From an uncultured SAR86 cluster bacterium (lineage in GTDB: Bacteria; Pseudomonadota; Gammaproteobacteria; Magnimaribacterales; D2472), in the NCBI GenBank assembly GCA_902511575.1, contig CABXFU010000007.1, positions 1 to 64,000 of the forward strand: DNA of 64,000 bases. Reading direction: 5' to 3'. Below are positions 44,884-63,903 of this stretch, piece by piece (the first letter of the stretch is position 1; each line of letters starts with the position of its first letter). The notes under the pieces are model-generated. The model was not told the origin of the DNA. It made no database searches and saw only the letters and a list, made by a program, of their open reading frames with translations. A program made the position numbers and the translations under genes.

Positions 44884-45786
44884 ATGAAAATTCAATCTTT
44901 AAGTTATCTGCTTGTAGAAACAACCAACCTTCATGAATGGGTTGATTACGCAAAAGATGTTGTTGGTTTGATGAAAAATGATTCTCTAAGTGATGAGCAT
45001 AATCTTTATCTTAGAATGGATGAAAGATCTTTTAGGTTTCATATTACAACCGGCGATTCGCAGAAGTATCTTGCTGCTGGTTTTTCATTATCTGACAAAG
45101 CTGCTTTTGATGAAGCCAAAAGCGAGTTAGACCAAGCGAATATTGATTACGAAGATTTGGGTGATGAAATAGCAAAATTAAGATGTGTTGAGGAATGTAT
45201 TGGACTTAATGATCCGGCAGGCAATAGGCTTGAACTTTCTCATGGAAGTAAAAACTCATCTGAGCCATTTCTATCAACGCAGGATATAAAAGGCTTCATT
45301 ACCAAGGGACTTGGTTTTGGTCATGTCGTTTTTGCAGCACCTGATTTGGAGCCTGCGCATAGATTTTATATAGATATCTTAGGCTTTGGAGATTCTGATT
45401 ATATGAATTTCCCAATGGGGCCAGCTCCTGATGCCCCTGAGGTAAAATTAAATTTTATGCACTGTGATAACCCCAGACATCACACAGTTGCTCTATATGA
45501 ATCTCCCATCCCGCCATCAGGTCTAATACACACCATGGTAGAGGTAAACGATATTGATGAGGTTGGTTATGGTCTTGATAGAGCTATGCAGAACAATATC
45601 CATATTTCTTCTTCGCTGGGTAGGCATTCTAACGATATGATGGTTTCATTTTATATGCAGACTCCTGCAGGTTTTGATTTGGAATTTGGCTATGACGGAT
45701 GGCAGGTTGACTGGGATAATTTTGAGATGCAAAAGAGCAAGATTCCTAGCTTTTGGGGCCATGCCTTTTCACCGCCTGAAAATTAG
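44884..45786 (+). CDS. hsaC: Extradiol dioxygenase, HsaC/TesB type
   Basis: 300 aa, two-domain type I extradiol dioxygenase. The Fe(II) ligands are H147 (GFGHVVFAA), H216 (GLIHTMVEV) and E267 (DLEFGYDG), matching H145/H215/E266 in mycobacterial HsaC (from memory). HsaC opens the catecholic ring A of 3,4-DHSA. BphC-type enzymes of biphenyl pathways look similar; the ipd and hsa neighbours decide for a steroid substrate. First gene of the operon; stop 2 nt before ipdA. Confidence 0.85.
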   Translation: MKIQSLSYLLVETTNLHEWVDYAKDVVGLMKNDSLSDEHNLYLRMDERSFRFHITTGDSQKYLAAGFSLSDKAAFDEAKSELDQANIDYEDLGDEIAKLRCVEECIGLNDPAGNRLELSHGSKNSSEPFLSTQDIKGFITKGLGFGHVVFAAPDLEPAHRFYIDILGFGDSDYMNFPMGPAPDAPEVKLNFMHCDNPRHHTVALYESPIPPSGLIHTMVEVNDIDEVGYGLDRAMQNNIHISSSLGRHSNDMMVSFYMQTPAGFDLEFGYDGWQVDWDNFEMQKSKIPSFWGHAFSPPEN

Positions 45787-57147: not shown

Positions 57148-57957
57148 ATGATTCCTCAAGGCTCCTATATTGATGTCGAGGACGGCTTTAAGTTTCATTA
57201 TTATGATGAGGGAGATGGAGATGTGGTGGTTTTGTTGCATGGAAGTGGAACAGGCGCTTCAGGACATACCAACTTTAAAAATAATTTTTTTGCATTAAAG
57301 GAATCTGGATTTAGGGTAATTTTACCAGATCTCCCTGGATATGGTTTTTCAAGCAAACCAGAGGATGAAATATACTCACTAGATTATTTTAATACTAAAA
57401 TCCTTCAACTCCTTGATGCCTTGAAGATTCAGTCCTTTTCAATTATTGGGAATAGTCTTGGTGGGGCATTAGCTTTGGGCCTAGCTCTTAGCCATTCTGA
57501 AAGAGTGCAAAAATTAATTTTGATGGCTCCTGGTGGAGTTGAAGATCAAGAAACTTATAACAAAATGCCAGGCATACAAAAGCTTCTTACAGATTTTTTA
57601 GGAGGTGAGATGAGTCAAGAGAAAATAGAAGGCTTGCTGTCTCTTTTTCCTTATGATCCCTCAATTATCACTGAAGAAATGGTAGCCGATAGAATGGAAA
57701 TTCTTCCCTTAATGAATTCTCAAGTTTTAGCTTCTATGACAATTCCCAATATGGAGAAAGATCTTTCAAAAATCAATCATCCCATTCTTGCTTTTTGGGG
57801 TATTAGTGATCAATTTATTCCTGTCTCAGGTTCAATGAAAATTGGAGAAAGCTGTCCAAATGCTCAGATTATGCTTTTTAGTCAATGCGGGCATTGGGTT
57901 ATGATTGAGAAAGAACAAATCTTTAATGAGGCCTGCATTAATTTTTTATCAGTCTAG
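57148..57957 (+). CDS. hsaD: HsaD/TesD-type C-C bond hydrolase
   Basis: 269 aa alpha/beta hydrolase of the meta-cleavage-product group: oxyanion loop LLHGSGTGASG, nucleophile S103 in GNSLGG, D221 in WGISDQFIP, H249 in CGHWVMIE. It would hydrolyse 4,9-DSHA (HsaC product) to HIP-type acid (DOHNAA) and 2-hydroxyhexa-2,4-dienoate. MhpC/BphD act on other substrates; context favours HsaD. Confidence 0.87.
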   Translation: MIPQGSYIDVEDGFKFHYYDEGDGDVVVLLHGSGTGASGHTNFKNNFFALKESGFRVILPDLPGYGFSSKPEDEIYSLDYFNTKILQLLDALKIQSFSIIGNSLGGALALGLALSHSERVQKLILMAPGGVEDQETYNKMPGIQKLLTDFLGGEMSQEKIEGLLSLFPYDPSIITEEMVADRMEILPLMNSQVLASMTIPNMEKDLSKINHPILAFWGISDQFIPVSGSMKIGESCPNAQIMLFSQCGHWVMIEKEQIFNEACINFLSV

Positions 57958-57960
57958 CTT

Positions 57961-58746
57961 ATGAATTTAAATACCATCAATGAGATAGCATCAGAACTTT
58001 TCTTGGCTTTAAAAAATCAAGAAACAATTTTGCCGCTTTCTGATAAATATGAAGAAATCGACATAAACGATGCCTATCAAATTTCACGTAAATTTCTCTC
58101 ATTGAGAGAAGATCAAGGTGAAAAGGTTATTGGAAAGAAAATTGGAGTTACAAGCTCAGTTGTTCAAGAAATGCTGGGAGTCAACCAACCAGATTTTGGT
58201 TTTTTAACAGATAACATGCATGTTAAAAATAAATCCAATTTTTTAATAGAAGATTCCTTGATTCAACCTAGGGCAGAGGCTGAAATTGCTTTTGTTTTAA
58301 AAGAAGATATTCAAGGACCTGGAATAACAAAAGAAGATGTCATTTTAGCAACTGAAAAAATTGTTCCATGTTTTGAAATTGTTGACTCAAGAATTCATGA
58401 TTGGAAAATTAAAATTCAAGACACCATTGCTGATAATGCATCTTGTGGAATTTTTGTTTTAGGAGAAGGTTCCTCTTCTCCTGAAAAGTTTTCAATGGAT
58501 GAGCTGGAGGTAGTTGTTTATAAAAACGGAAAATTTTTGTCTTCTGGTTTTGGTTCTGCTGTGCAAGGTCATCCAGCAGAAGCAGTTGCATGGTTAGCTA
58601 ACACTTTAGGTGAATATGATATTCCATTGCTCAAGGGTGAGTTTATTTTATCTGGATCGCTAGTTCCTCTTGAGCCAGCAATAGCTGGTGATAGTTTTTC
58701 TTTGGAGCTTAAGGGAGTCGGAACCTGCGAAATTAATTTTATCTAA
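57961..58746 (+). CDS. hsaE: 2-hydroxyhexa-2,4-dienoate hydratase, HsaE/TesE type
   Basis: 261 aa, FAH-superfamily hydratase (MhpD-like). [20 protein letters not shown], the metal-site segment [21 protein letters not shown], and the closing hydrophobic [16 protein letters not shown]. Adds water to the C6 dienoate from HsaD to make 4-hydroxy-2-oxohexanoate. Between hsaD and hsaG, in the order of mycobacterial and proteobacterial clusters. Confidence 0.87.
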
Positions 58747-58748
58747 TT

Positions 58749-59672
58749 ATGAGTAAAGTTAAATGTGCAATTATTGGATCTGGGAATATTGGTACAGATC
58801 TTATGTTAAAAATTATTAAAACCTCTCAATCCTTATCTTTAAATGGAGTAATTGGAATTGATCCTGAGTCTGAGGGTCTAGCAATGGCAAAATCTCATAA
58901 TATCCCAATTTCAACTTCTGGTTTGCAAGGTTTTATGGAAATGGATGAGTATCAAGATACTGAAATATTTTTTGATGCAACGTCTGCTGGCGCACATAAA
59001 AATCATCATGATTTAATTATTAATGATGGCAAACAGATGATAGATCTTACTCCAGCAGCACTAGGCCCTTATTGCGTTCCAGTTGTTAATTTAACTGAGC
59101 ATTTAAAAGAAAAGAATGTGAACATGGTTACATGCGGGGGCCAAGCTACTATCCCAATGGTTGCAGCAGTTAATCAAGTTTCTAGTGTTAAGTACGCTGA
59201 AATAGTTGCATCTGTTTCTTCGCGATCTGCTGGCCCAGGAACAAGAGCTAATATTGATGAATTTACTCAAACAACCAAGCTTGGGCTTGAAAAAGTTGGA
59301 GGAGCAGACAGAGCCAAAGCTATCATTGTGCTTAATCCTGCTGAGCCTCCTTTGTTGATGCGAAATACTGTTTTTACTTTATGTGATCCAGTTGATCAGC
59401 AGTTAGTTAAAGAGAGTGTTGAAGCCATGGTAGAGCGTGTTCAATCATATGTTCCGGGCTATCGTTTAAAGCAAGAAGTGCAATTTGAAAGATTTGGGTC
59501 TAATAATCCATGCTCAATTCCCGGCTATGGTGAGTTTGAAGGTCTAAAGGCATCAATTTTTCTTGAGGTTGAGGGTGCTGGACATTATTTACCAACCTAT
59601 GCTGGAAATTTAGATATCATGACTTCTGCTGCCATGGGAACAGCACAAGAATTAATTAAACTTAATTCATGA
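58749..59672 (+). CDS. hsaG: Acetaldehyde/propanal dehydrogenase (acylating), HsaG/TesF type
   Basis: 307 aa. N-terminal Rossmann motif [12 protein letters not shown], catalytic C129 in TCGGQATIP, and the NAD-dependent MhpF/DmpF family C-terminus. It oxidises propanal (from HsaF) to propionyl-CoA. ATGA overlap with hsaF; the two proteins form a channelling complex in known systems. Confidence 0.91.
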
Positions 59673-60685
59673 ATAAGCTATATATACAAGATGTCACACT
59701 CAGGGATGGAATGCATGCTATCCGGCATCAGTATGGTTTAGATCATGTGATTGAGATTGCGAAGGCATTAGATGAAGCAAAAGTTGATGCTATTGAGGTA
59801 GCTCATGGAGATGGCCTATCCGGATCTTCTTTTAATTATGGCTTTGGAGCACATACAGACCAAGAATGGATTGGAGCAGTCGCAGAGAAATTGAATCATG
59901 CAAAGTTGACCACTCTTATTTTGCCTGGAATTGCTGTAAAAGAAGATCTGAAATGGGCGTGGGATCTAGGCGTAAGATCTGTTCGAGTTGCAACTCATTG
60001 CACTGAGGCAGATGTATCAAAGCAGCACATAGAGTTTGCAAGAGAATTAGGAATGGATACTATTGGGTTTTTGATGATGTCACACATGAGTGCACCATCG
60101 AACCTAGCAGAGCAAGCTAAGCTAATGGAGTCCTATGGAGCTGAATGTGTATATGTAGTTGATTCTGGTGGCGCACTTAGCATGGAGGATGTTGCAGATA
60201 GATTCAAAGCTTTCAAAGATACTTTAGATTCCCAGACTCAAACAGGTATGCATGCTCATCATAATTTATCTTTGGGAGTTGCTAACTCTATTGTTGCTGT
60301 TGAAAATGGGGCAAATCGAGTTGATGCTAGTCTTGCAGGAATGGGGGCTGGAGCAGGAAATGCGCCTCTTGAAGTTTTCATTGGTGCAATTGACAGGTTG
60401 GGTTGGACTCATGGTACAGATTTATTCAAATTAATGGATGCTGCTGAAGAGCTTGTTCGCCCTTTGCAAGACAGACCAGTAAGAGTAGATAGAGAAACAT
60501 TAACATTGGGTTATGCGGGAGTGTATTCTTCATTTTTAAGGCATGCTGAATCAGCTGCTGAAACCTATAATCTTGATACCAGAGAAATTTTAGTTGAATT
60601 GGGAAAAAGGAAGATGGTAGGTGGTCAAGAAGATATGATTGTTGATGTAGCCCTTGATCTACTGAAAAAGAAATCTCAATCATGA
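59669..60685 (+). CDS. hsaF: 4-hydroxy-2-oxohexanoate/valerate aldolase, HsaF/TesG type
   Basis: 338 aa TIM-barrel aldolase of the DmpG/MhpE family. [12 protein letters not shown] (R12, D13, H16), metal-site HAHHN near residue 195, AGNAPLEVF and the communication domain at the C-terminus. Cleaves 4-hydroxy-2-oxohexanoate to pyruvate and propanal. ATGA overlaps at both ends. Confidence 0.92.
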
Positions 60686-61554
60686 ACATTGGCATGACCC
60701 TTCCGGTCATGGAGCCTGATCTATCTAGGAAAGATTTAGAGAATTGGACTTTGCGCATTGATGCTGGTCCTTGGTCACACATTGCCTTGGGAGAAAGAAT
60801 TTTATTTCCTAACCCGGAATTTATCTCTACTTTAAGTGCGGTAGCTGCATGGACTAAGCGTGTAGAAATTATTGCAACCATCTCTGTATTAACAATGCAT
60901 AATCCAATTCTAAGCGCAAAACAGTTCGCAACCATTGATATGATTTCAGAGGGTAGGTTTACCCTTGGTGTTGGCGTTGGTGGCAGAGAAGAAGACTATA
61001 AATCTATAGGCTCAGACTGGTCTAATAGAAGATGGGCCACACTTTCAAAGAATGTTAAAACTATGCAATCTGTATGGTCAAAGGAACTTCACCCCAATCT
61101 CGGTCCAACAACTTTTTCTAACGGTGGTCCAAAAATATTAGCAGGCGCAGTAGGCCCTAAAGCCATGAAAATGTCTGCTAATTTTGCTGAGGGTTTAGCT
61201 GGATTTTCATTTAATGCAGATATTGAAGAAATTAAAGATTCATTTTATAGAGTGAATGAGGCATTTAAGAAAAACAACAAAACCCCTAGATTGGTAACAA
61301 GTTTTTGGTTTGGGTTGGGCGAATCTGCACGTTCAGATATTCAAATCCACCTTGAAAGATATTTAAGTTGGATGGGAGATGATCTTGCTAAGGATTTAGC
61401 AAAAACGGCAGGCTTTTCTGGCAATCAAGCTGATTTAAAGGAATTTCTTTCATTAATTAAAGCAGCTGGTGCAACAGACGTGCTGTTGGTTCCTACCTCA
61501 AAGAATATTGAACAATTAATCTTAGCAGAAGAAGTAATTGCTCAATTTAGCTGA
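60682..61554 (+). CDS. Luciferase-like (LLM) flavin/F420 oxidoreductase
   Basis: 290 aa LLM-class TIM barrel: [13 protein letters not shown], the barrel core [20 protein letters not shown] and the [16 protein letters not shown] motif. Mycobacterial steroid clusters also contain an LLM gene of unknown role (Rv3520c, from memory). FMN or F420 use is not decided by sequence; F420 is unusual in most marine gammaproteobacteria. Last gene of the first operon block; 114 bp gap follows. Confidence 0.85.
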
Positions 61555-61645: not shown

Positions 61646-61668
61646 GATAAAAATATAGGGAGAATATT

Positions 61669-62106
61669 TTGACTGATCAAGAGCTAGTAGCCCCTGAGCT
61701 TCCTGAGCAAAAAGATCCTGCAATTAGTGGTTTAGAGACTGGTTGGTATAAGGTTGCTAATAGTGAAGCCATTGCTTCAAAGCAAGCAATTCAAATCAAT
61801 GACTTCCCAACTCAGATTGTAGTTTGGAGAGGAGAAGACTTGGTTTTAAGAGGCTTAGATTTATATTGTAAACACATGGGAGCTTCTTTAGCCTGTGGTG
61901 AGGTTGATGAGAACAGCATCAGATGCCCATTCCATGCTTGGCGTTGGGCAGGAGATGGGCAATGTGATCAGATCCCATATGCAAAAAAAATCCCTACCAA
62001 GGCGGTAACTCGCTCATGGGAAGTAAGCGAAGATGATGGAATGGTATATGTTTGGTTTGATAAAGATCAAAAACCGGCAGATCCAAATGGAAAAAAGTTT
62101 AATTAA
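61669..62106 (+). CDS. Stand-alone KshA-type Rieske [2Fe-2S] protein
   Basis: 145 aa, TTG start at 61669 with AGGGAGA upstream. Residues 21-135 are a complete Rieske domain: ligands C67 and H69 (YCKHMG), C86 and H89 (CPFHAWRW), 16 residues apart. The GQCDQIPYAKKIP and MVYVWFDKD segments copy the KshA Rieske domain closely, more than any plant-type or generic Rieske ferredoxin. There is no catalytic domain; the protein ends where KshA would continue. Next gene starts 15 nt later with its own AGGAGA ribosome site. It may deliver electrons to the catalytic partner, taking the place of the missing internal cluster. Confidence 0.88.
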   Translation: MTDQELVAPELPEQKDPAISGLETGWYKVANSEAIASKQAIQINDFPTQIVVWRGEDLVLRGLDLYCKHMGASLACGEVDENSIRCPFHAWRWAGDGQCDQIPYAKKIPTKAVTRSWEVSEDDGMVYVWFDKDQKPADPNGKKFN

Positions 62107-62121
62107 AAATAGGAGACAGCA

Positions 62122-62967
62122 ATGAATGATTTACCAGATAGGTTTCCAAGAGGGTGGTTTGTTTTAGGCCATCAGAGAGATTTCCCAGTTGGAGAAACAA
62201 AAACCATTTTTGGATTCAATAGCAAAATATCAATTTTAAGAAATGAGGATAGCTCAGTCTTGGTGGATGTTGGCGGAGATGCCTCTTGGCCAGTTTTGGA
62301 GTTAAACCAGATGGTTATGGTATGGCATGACATTGAGAAGCAATCTCCCGATTTTACTCCAGACAAGATAGAAGAATGTTATTCAGATGATTGGTCAGAT
62401 TATGGAATGGCAAGTTTCTTGGTTAAAAATAACTGCAGAGAACTAATTGATAACATGGCTGATAAAGGGCATTTTGGTCCGGTTCATCAAGCTCCATTCG
62501 AGGGGTTTTGGAATGAAGCAAAAGATCATACATATACACAAGAGATGACAGCAGATAGTCCTATCTTAGGCAGAGACTTATTTTCTCAAGCAAGATATGA
62601 AGGTCCTGCATACATGACGACTTATATGAGCGCTGTCCATGATGGAGCAAAAGTTGAAAGTAGACTTTTGGTAAGCCATATACCTTTAACCCTAACTTCT
62701 TTTGTCATTAATTTTGGAGTTATGGTCAAAAAAGTACCTGGTATGTCTGCTGAAGATGAAGCTGCTTTTATCCAAGGTTACGTTGACGCTAATAATTTTG
62801 CTTTTGGACAAGATGTAGCTATTTGGGAGAATAAAATTTATATTCCTGATCCAGTAGTTTGTGATGGCGACGGGCCTTTGCATAAACTTAGAAAATGGTA
62901 CGGACAATTTCTAGTTAATAGAGCGGATATTCCTTCAGGTTTAGATCTGGAAAAAAGAGAATTTTAA
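62122..62967 (+). CDS. kshA: KshA-type oxygenase catalytic protein without Rieske ligands
   Basis: 281 aa. Non-heme Fe site: H117 and H122 (ADKGHFGPVH), third ligand D231 (GQDVAIWENK), bridging Asp D114. The NCRELIDN lead-in and DGDGPLHKLRKWYGQF end match 3-ketosteroid 9alpha-hydroxylase (KshA, about 380 aa). Residues 8-50 keep the first strands of a Rieske domain (RFPRGWFVLGHQRDFPVG) and about 56-70 keep its last strand (VLELNQMVMVWHD), but the loops with both CxH and CxxH are gone. It can bind no [2Fe-2S] cluster and so needs an outside Rieske donor, plausibly the gene before it. No reductase (KshB) in the window. Confidence 0.85.
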   Translation: MNDLPDRFPRGWFVLGHQRDFPVGETKTIFGFNSKISILRNEDSSVLVDVGGDASWPVLELNQMVMVWHDIEKQSPDFTPDKIEECYSDDWSDYGMASFLVKNNCRELIDNMADKGHFGPVHQAPFEGFWNEAKDHTYTQEMTADSPILGRDLFSQARYEGPAYMTTYMSAVHDGAKVESRLLVSHIPLTLTSFVINFGVMVKKVPGMSAEDEAAFIQGYVDANNFAFGQDVAIWENKIYIPDPVVCDGDGPLHKLRKWYGQFLVNRADIPSGLDLEKREF

Positions 62968-62990: not shown

Positions 62991-63458
62991 GTGAAGCCTT
63001 CACTCGATGACCTTGATCATAAGATTCTTCAAATTCTTGAGGAAGATGGGCGCGCACCAGCAAAATTTATTGCAGAAAAGCTATCCGTCAATGAAGTCAC
63101 TGTTAGCAAACGGCTTACAAAAATTATTGAAGGAGGTTTTTGTAAAATCATTGCGATAGCTGATTTTGAAAAATGTGGTTATGAGTATTTACTTCCAATC
63201 GGCATAAGAGTTCAAGGTGACAAATTGGAGGAGGTTGCAGAAATTCTCTCTCAGCAAAAAGAAGTATTTAGTGTCAATGTGGTGAGTGGTATTCAGGACA
63301 TAGAGATTCTATGCGCTACACAAAGCCTGAGTGAAACAAAAATATTTTTAGATGAAACCTTGCCATCTATCGTAGGCATCAAAAGTATTGCTCCTGCAAT
63401 TGCGTCAAACGTATATAAATTTGAAACGGATTGGACTCCTTTTGCAAATGAAGCTTGA
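62991..63458 (+). CDS. Lrp/AsnC family regulator 1
   Basis: 155 aa, GTG start. N-terminal winged helix (LDHKILQILEEDGRAPAKFIAEKL ... TVSKRLTKI) and C-terminal RAM/AsnC effector domain from about residue 70. The effector site may bind a CoA or steroid intermediate instead of an amino acid, given the context. Overlaps regulator 2 by 11 nt. Confidence 0.9.
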   Translation: MKPSLDDLDHKILQILEEDGRAPAKFIAEKLSVNEVTVSKRLTKIIEGGFCKIIAIADFEKCGYEYLLPIGIRVQGDKLEEVAEILSQQKEVFSVNVVSGIQDIEILCATQSLSETKIFLDETLPSIVGIKSIAPAIASNVYKFETDWTPFANEA

Positions 63459-63903
63459 TCAAACTGATAAAAAAATTATTCAACTACTTGGCGCTGATGC
63501 AAGGATGTCAAACAATCAAATGGCTAAAGTAATTGGAGTAACTGAAGGCACTGTTCGGAATAGAATCCAAAAACTTATACACAATAAGGTAATAAAAATC
63601 TCTGTTATCAATAATATAAATCGTATGGAGAACCCATCGCTTGCTTTCGTTGGGTTGGATGTTGAAACTCGGGCCAAAGATTCTGTTGCTAAAGCTCTAT
63701 CAAAAATGAAGGAAGTTCGGTTTGTTTCAACTCTAATGGGTCGTCATGATCTTATGGTATTCATTCTAGCTGAGGATGTTACTAAGCTTTCTAAAGTTTT
63801 ATATGAAGAAATTTCTTCCTTGCCTGGTGTAAGGTTTTCAGAATCATCTATTGGGCTGAAGTATTACAAGTATGATTATCGATGGGCCAGGATATTAGAT
63901 TGA
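63448..63903 (+). CDS. Lrp/AsnC family regulator 2
   Basis: 151 aa from ATG 63448. Winged helix (TDKKIIQLLGADARMSNNQMAKVIG, TEGTVRNRIQKLI) and effector domain. Diverged from regulator 1 (about the same length, clearly distinct sequence), so the two may form heteromers. Known steroid operons use TetR-type KstR or KstR2; Lrp pairs would be a different control. Confidence 0.9.
   Translation: MKLDQTDKKIIQLLGADARMSNNQMAKVIGVTEGTVRNRIQKLIHNKVIKISVINNINRMENPSLAFVGLDVETRAKDSVAKALSKMKEVRFVSTLMGRHDLMVFILAEDVTKLSKVLYEEISSLPGVRFSESSIGLKYYKYDYRWARILD

Follow-up and report, generated by a model that had tools for sequence, protein, structure and literature searches.

The split oxygenase locus

Through analysis of the window, i.e. 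the whole 64,000-nucleotide stretch from a SAR86 genome of 1.39 Mb with a completeness of 83%, two adjacent genes encoding the separate parts of a KshA-type Rieske oxygenase have been identified. The pair follows genes resembling hsaE, hsaG and hsaF, and hsaC-, hsaD-, ipdAB- and ipdC-like genes belong to the same cluster; the hsa/ipd names are those of established steroid-degradation biology. The features of the locus are as follows:

44884..45786, forward strand: HsaC-like extradiol dioxygenase (NCBIfam HsaC, E 6e-77, under the model's cut-off)
57148..60685, forward strand: HsaD-like hydrolase, HsaE-like hydratase, HsaG-like acetaldehyde dehydrogenase and HsaF-like aldolase (Pfam)
60682..61554, forward strand: luciferase-like monooxygenase, between hsaF and ORF1 (PF00296)
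61657..61662, forward strand: Shine-Dalgarno sequence of ORF1, AGGGAG, 6 nt upstream of the TTG start (sequence)
61669..62106, forward strand: ORF1, free-standing KshA-like Rieske [2Fe-2S] protein, 145 aa, TTG start (PF00355)
61867..61935, forward strand: ORF1 Rieske ligand codons C67, H69, C86 and H89 (alignment to Mtb KshA)
62111..62115, forward strand: Shine-Dalgarno sequence of ORF2, AGGAG (sequence)
62122..62967, forward strand: ORF2, Rieske-less KshA-type catalytic protein, 281 aa, ATG start (PF19298, KshA_C)
62122..62331, forward strand: gutted Rieske domain of ORF2, residues 1-70 (KshA alignment; six predicted strands)
62461..62463, forward strand: ORF2 D114, electron-bridging Asp, equivalent to KshA D178 (alignment; invariant)
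62470..62472, forward strand: ORF2 H117, Fe ligand, equivalent to KshA H181 (alignment; invariant)
62485..62487, forward strand: ORF2 H122, Fe ligand, equivalent to KshA H186 (alignment; invariant)
62812..62814, forward strand: ORF2 D231, Fe ligand, equivalent to KshA D304 (alignment; invariant)

A P450 gene (55752-57143) is situated inside the steroid cluster, as is the luciferase-like monooxygenase gene. Two adjacent Lrp/AsnC-type regulators (62991-63903) lie downstream of ORF2 in the window genome; at three other loci (L102, L109 and L110) an AMP-binding CoA ligase directly follows ORF2 and these regulators are missing. The order of the upstream meta-cleavage genes is similar in SAR86 of family f2, where the pair is still found beside hsaF and the luciferase-like monooxygenase is absent from that position.

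The original prediction described ORF1 as a full KshA-like Rieske domain with no catalytic domain, and both the Pfam match (PF00355, E 8.6e-20; Rieske domain only) and the ligand alignment agree. Its residues C67, H69, C86 and H89 correspond to the identically numbered cluster ligands of Mtb KshA and are invariant across 26 pairs; the KshA-like surroundings of the cluster (HMG, CPFHxWxW) are kept as well. The nearest PDB relatives are the Rieske domains of KshA (E 7e-29; 94-104 bits), while models of ferredoxin subunits score at most 27 bits. The possibility that ORF1 is an ordinary ferredoxin was rejected by similarity and by a tree, the sequences of which included no ferredoxins.

ORF2 possesses the characteristic features of the KshA catalytic part: (i) residues 67-263 fill the KshA_C profile (E 3.5e-57); (ii) its nearest solved relatives are KshA catalytic domains (E 3e-44); (iii) D114, H117, H122 and D231 align with D178, H181, H186 and D304 of Mtb KshA; (iv) the KshA C-terminal segment is conserved. 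The four residues had been proposed as the Fe site, and all are indeed conserved, but D114 is the electron-bridging aspartate and not a ligand. At the N-terminus, ORF2 has DRFPRGWFVLG, the motif with which KshA starts, and about 50 residues match the beginning of KshA with a z of about 11-13 against shuffled sequences (0 of 500 scored as high). The cluster-binding segment (about 64-119 in KshA) is absent from the alignment, with the strands on both flanks kept. In the AlphaFold2 model of the whole protein (pLDDT 86) the remnant domain forms six strands (pLDDT about 83-95), and Foldseek superposes the model, remnant included, on KshA structures with a TM of 0.86-0.90 by query length. Alignment and model thus bear out the earlier view that the base strands were retained and the cluster loops deleted.

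Conservation of the gene pair

The search for the pair in related genomes, which the original prediction had proposed, recovered 26 distinct ORF1/ORF2 pairs in SAR86, all with both frames intact. ORF1 is located directly upstream of ORF2 in the SAR86 ORF2 loci having enough upstream sequence. The pair spans five genera of two families, f1 (g1, g8 and g10) and f2 (g11 and g22), and its sources include single-cell genomes and a complete chromosome (CP097973, genome G032). Between the families, ORF1 is 41% and ORF2 55% identical. The distance between the genes varies from -17 to +22 bp, indicating that the reading frames have been maintained while the spacing drifted. Both genes are under purifying selection, with dN/dS of 0.05-0.28 for ORF1 and 0.02-0.13 for ORF2, the highest values coming from the f2 comparison. 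Outside SAR86, KshA_C matches were surveyed in evenly sampled genomes (369 from the class, 398 from the phylum), and every match sits in a full-length frame of at least 347 aa.

Two adjacent frames, in the same reading frame in the window, have the look of a single kshA broken by a frameshift, a pseudogenizing mutation or an assembly error. This explanation is refuted by the number, sources and varied spacing of the intact pairs, by the low dN/dS and by the base strands being duplicated, and we regard its probability as practically nil. As had been argued from the separate Shine-Dalgarno sequences, AGGGAG and AGGAG, which are both in place, a simple stop mutation does not account for the locus. 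Seemingly joined frames of 424 aa in two genomes (G039 and G120) are not fusions, as several stops lie inside the joined stretch, and ORF1 of loci L022 and L051 terminates at a separate stop codon 21 bp upstream of ORF2. A split Rieske/catalytic gene architecture that is genuine and conserved within SAR86 is therefore strongly supported.

Ancestry of the two proteins

Both parts descend from KshA. In the unrooted catalytic tree, ORF2 falls within a group of 26 that includes the KshA proteins of the PDB (support 100/100), and in the unrooted Rieske tree 24 other oxygenases are separated from KshA and ORF1 (100/99). The split proteins form one group within the KshA part of each tree (99/90 catalytic, 97/91 Rieske), and in both trees this group stands apart from the KshA_C-family oxygenases of about 330 aa.

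A plain fission of kshA was rejected, because the Rieske base strands occur in both products. The original proposal of a whole-gene duplication with reciprocal loss is favoured over fission on the same ground; a whole or a partial duplication would fit, and we infer that one of these, followed by complementary loss, produced the pair. This event would predate the divergence of families f1 and f2, unless the pair spread between them by transfer.

Proposed mechanism and electron supply

The most coherent reading is that ORF1 and ORF2 together constitute one Rieske oxygenase, a KshA-type hydroxylase that receives its cluster in trans, and we consider this likely. ORF2 would bind the steroid and O2 at the KshA-type mononuclear iron and probably still assembles as a trimer like KshA, with the hollowed Rieske domain serving only as a structural base. 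ORF1, carrying the [2Fe-2S] cluster, would be reduced by a ferredoxin or reductase other than KshB. Since ORF2 has kept the receiving side at D114 and ORF1 the cluster, the most straightforward interpretation is that ORF1 would dock near D114, in the place normally taken by the Rieske domain of the neighbouring subunit, and would hand electrons one by one to the iron of ORF2. In KshA, electrons leave the Rieske cluster of one subunit and reach the neighbouring subunit's iron via Asp178 (PMC4064121); in CntA, a structurally studied relative, the distance is 44 Å within the chain and 12 Å across the interface (PMC7948474). NdmC is likewise thought to be supplied by NdmD, which has an extra Rieske cluster as the electron source (PMC4408171). 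A single-chain model of ORF1 and ORF2 read through both stops (each taken as Q) gave a pTM of 0.74; its overall superposition on KshA is poor (rmsd 17-20 Å) and the KshA domain arrangement is not reproduced.

The partner reductase of KshA, KshB, combines FAD with a plant-type [2Fe-2S] cluster. A profile search with PF00970 (FAD_binding_6) found no KshB-like reductase in nine pair-bearing SAR86 genomes, the complete G032 among them. The sole match in each is one frame of 411-413 aa, which from its sequence and its neighbours in G032 is read as NqrF. Several KshA_C-family oxygenases are present in these nine genomes. In the complete genome G032 the candidate donors are a single Reductase_C flavoprotein and a ferredoxin domain encoded within the isc cluster; the flavoprotein gene (L163/L164) adjoins an SDR resembling a steroid side-chain enzyme. 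Given that no KshB-like reductase was found, a chain from NAD(P)H through a flavoprotein and a ferredoxin to ORF1 and then ORF2 appears likely.

A second KshA_C-family oxygenase is encoded at another locus (in the window genome G000:C6:49281-50234, L003, beside a thymidine-kinase-like gene; elsewhere L132 and L165-L172). In nine SAR86 genomes it has lost Rieske ligands with the iron site intact: the first Rieske His is missing (CGY or CAF replaces CxH), often together with further ligands. A normal Rieske domain is present in its counterparts from 14 further genomes, the majority of them ORF1-bearing as well, and these intact copies look to be at the same locus as the dead ones. Residues 1-105 of the dead copies form one clade (100/100), whereas in the catalytic half dead and intact copies intermingle; identity between the two kinds is 32-46% over residues 49-105 and 84-95% thereafter. 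This pattern looks like segmental exchange of the cluster-binding region. The complete G032 chromosome encodes Rieske domains in ORF1, in two full-length oxygenases (one ligand-dead) and in a 196-aa protein read as bc1. ORF1 is thus its sole free-standing oxygenase-type Rieske protein, and three oxygenase iron sites stand against two Rieske clusters of oxygenase type, that of ORF1 included.

These observations bear on two other accounts of where the electrons of ORF2 come from and where those of ORF1 go. The surplus of iron sites over clusters in G032 suggests that ORF1 may be a shared, exchangeable carrier feeding several Rieske-less or Rieske-dead oxygenases, namely ORF2 and the ligand-dead form of the second oxygenase, whose cluster-binding region would have been replaced while its catalytic site stayed intact. 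On the other hand, ORF1 is always beside ORF2, nothing seen ties it to the second oxygenase, and the latter keeps a normal Rieske domain in the 14 genomes mentioned; we therefore hold such sharing to be unlikely. It does qualify the obligate pairing claimed by the original prediction, since ORF1 might also serve the second oxygenase. Alternatively, ORF2 could borrow electrons from full-length KshA within mixed trimers, leaving ORF1 as a separate ferredoxin. Mixed trimers of Rieske oxygenases are conceivable and some genomes do encode full-length KshA, but the complete G032 and most pair-bearing genomes have none, and ORF1 both adjoins ORF2 and resembles KshA rather than ferredoxins, which makes this account very improbable. 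Supply of the cluster to ORF2 by ORF1 remains the preferred reading.

Substrate and other KshA-family genes

The reaction is most likely a 3-ketosteroid hydroxylation, at the 9alpha position to judge by the family. The canonical KshA clade is represented by the split pair alone in most pair-bearing genomes, among them the complete G032. Because most of the genomes lack a full-length KshA yet have other genes of KstD-like and, mostly, of HsaA-like type, the split enzyme is the leading candidate for the role of core 3-ketosteroid 9alpha-hydroxylase in these SAR86. Six split-bearing genomes also encode a full-length-type KshA beside hsaA- and/or kstD-like genes, one of these copies being cut by a contig end. 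The accessory hsaA-kshA-kstD module with full-length KshA is found at L103-L107 (G014, G006, G034, G002 and G008) and is missing from most split-bearing genomes. KshA_C-family oxygenases of about 330 aa occur in nearly all SAR86 genomes. Genes for such oxygenases are located near or next to kstD-like genes.

The pair might be a working split oxygenase that acts at another position, or on another steroid or terpenoid. Besides the six genomes with a second, full-length-type KshA, this alternative may draw on the P450 and luciferase-like monooxygenase of the same cluster and on the substrate contacts: of eight residues proposed for Mtb KshA, ORF2 keeps five and differs at three. The same three positions differ also in the full-length KshA of SAR86. 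Another hydroxylation is conceivable especially because the oxygenases of about 330 aa are encoded near or next to kstD-like genes, and the 9alpha-hydroxylase could instead be one of the other KshA_C-family oxygenases that these genomes encode. Against this stand the absence of any other canonical-clade KshA from most split-bearing genomes, G032 included, and the hsa/ipd-like character of the cluster, and we judge a function other than 9alpha-hydroxylation somewhat unlikely. Of the two-protein steroid oxygenase originally predicted, the split architecture and the conservation of the pair are thus upheld, and the 9alpha reaction is retained as the probable one.

Comparison with known systems

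SAR86 are among the most abundant surface-ocean bacteria. In normal Rieske oxygenases the cluster and the iron share one chain and electrons cross between subunits, so that the transfer step is not separately titratable. With the two centres on separate proteins, as predicted in SAR86, docking, affinity and one-electron steps would become directly measurable. For annotation, surveys that look for KshA as a single chain may overlook or mislabel the core steroid hydroxylase of these bacteria. Papers of 2016 (PMC4810484) and 2024 (PMC11582366) describe steroid genes in SAR86, and the parts of these papers covered here make no mention of a split KshA. The 2024 survey reports kshA from a single family, and there from just a part of the genomes; the word "Rieske" is nowhere in its text (PMC11582366). 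The open-access literature searched yielded no split KshA, and as other split Rieske oxygenases it gave only NdmCDE.

In three-component systems, the Rieske ferredoxin delivers electrons to an oxygenase with a Rieske cluster of its own. ORF1 is small and stand-alone like the ferredoxins HcaC and AndAb, with weak HMM similarity to them; in contrast to these, it is far closer to KshA and would replace the cluster of the oxygenase. Compared to KshA (2ZYL, 4QDC and 4QDF), the SAR86 pair shares the Rieske ligands, the bridging Asp, the Fe ligands, the fold, the C-terminal segment and the steroid gene context. However, KshA carries an intact Rieske domain on its single chain and works with KshB, whereas the SAR86 enzyme consists of two chains, has a gutted Rieske domain on ORF2 and comes from genomes in which the search described above found no KshB-like reductase. 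The full-length KshA of SAR86 (hsaA-kshA-kstD) belongs to the same clade by its catalytic domain (40-43% identity); its differences are a Rieske domain built into the same single chain, another operon and a patchy distribution in SAR86.

The closest precedent is the 7-methylxanthine demethylase NdmC/NdmD/NdmE of caffeine demethylation, in which the catalytic subunit is clusterless and the cluster resides on another protein (PMC4408171). Judged by sequence, cluster and catalytic iron are likewise on different polypeptides in SAR86. In NdmCDE the Rieske domain is fused to a reductase and a GST-like protein is needed; the SAR86 system instead has a small separate Rieske protein encoded directly upstream, and ORF2 keeps a remnant base domain. 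The split KshA-type oxygenase appears to be a new form of a principle already known from NdmCDE, the Rieske cluster provided in trans.
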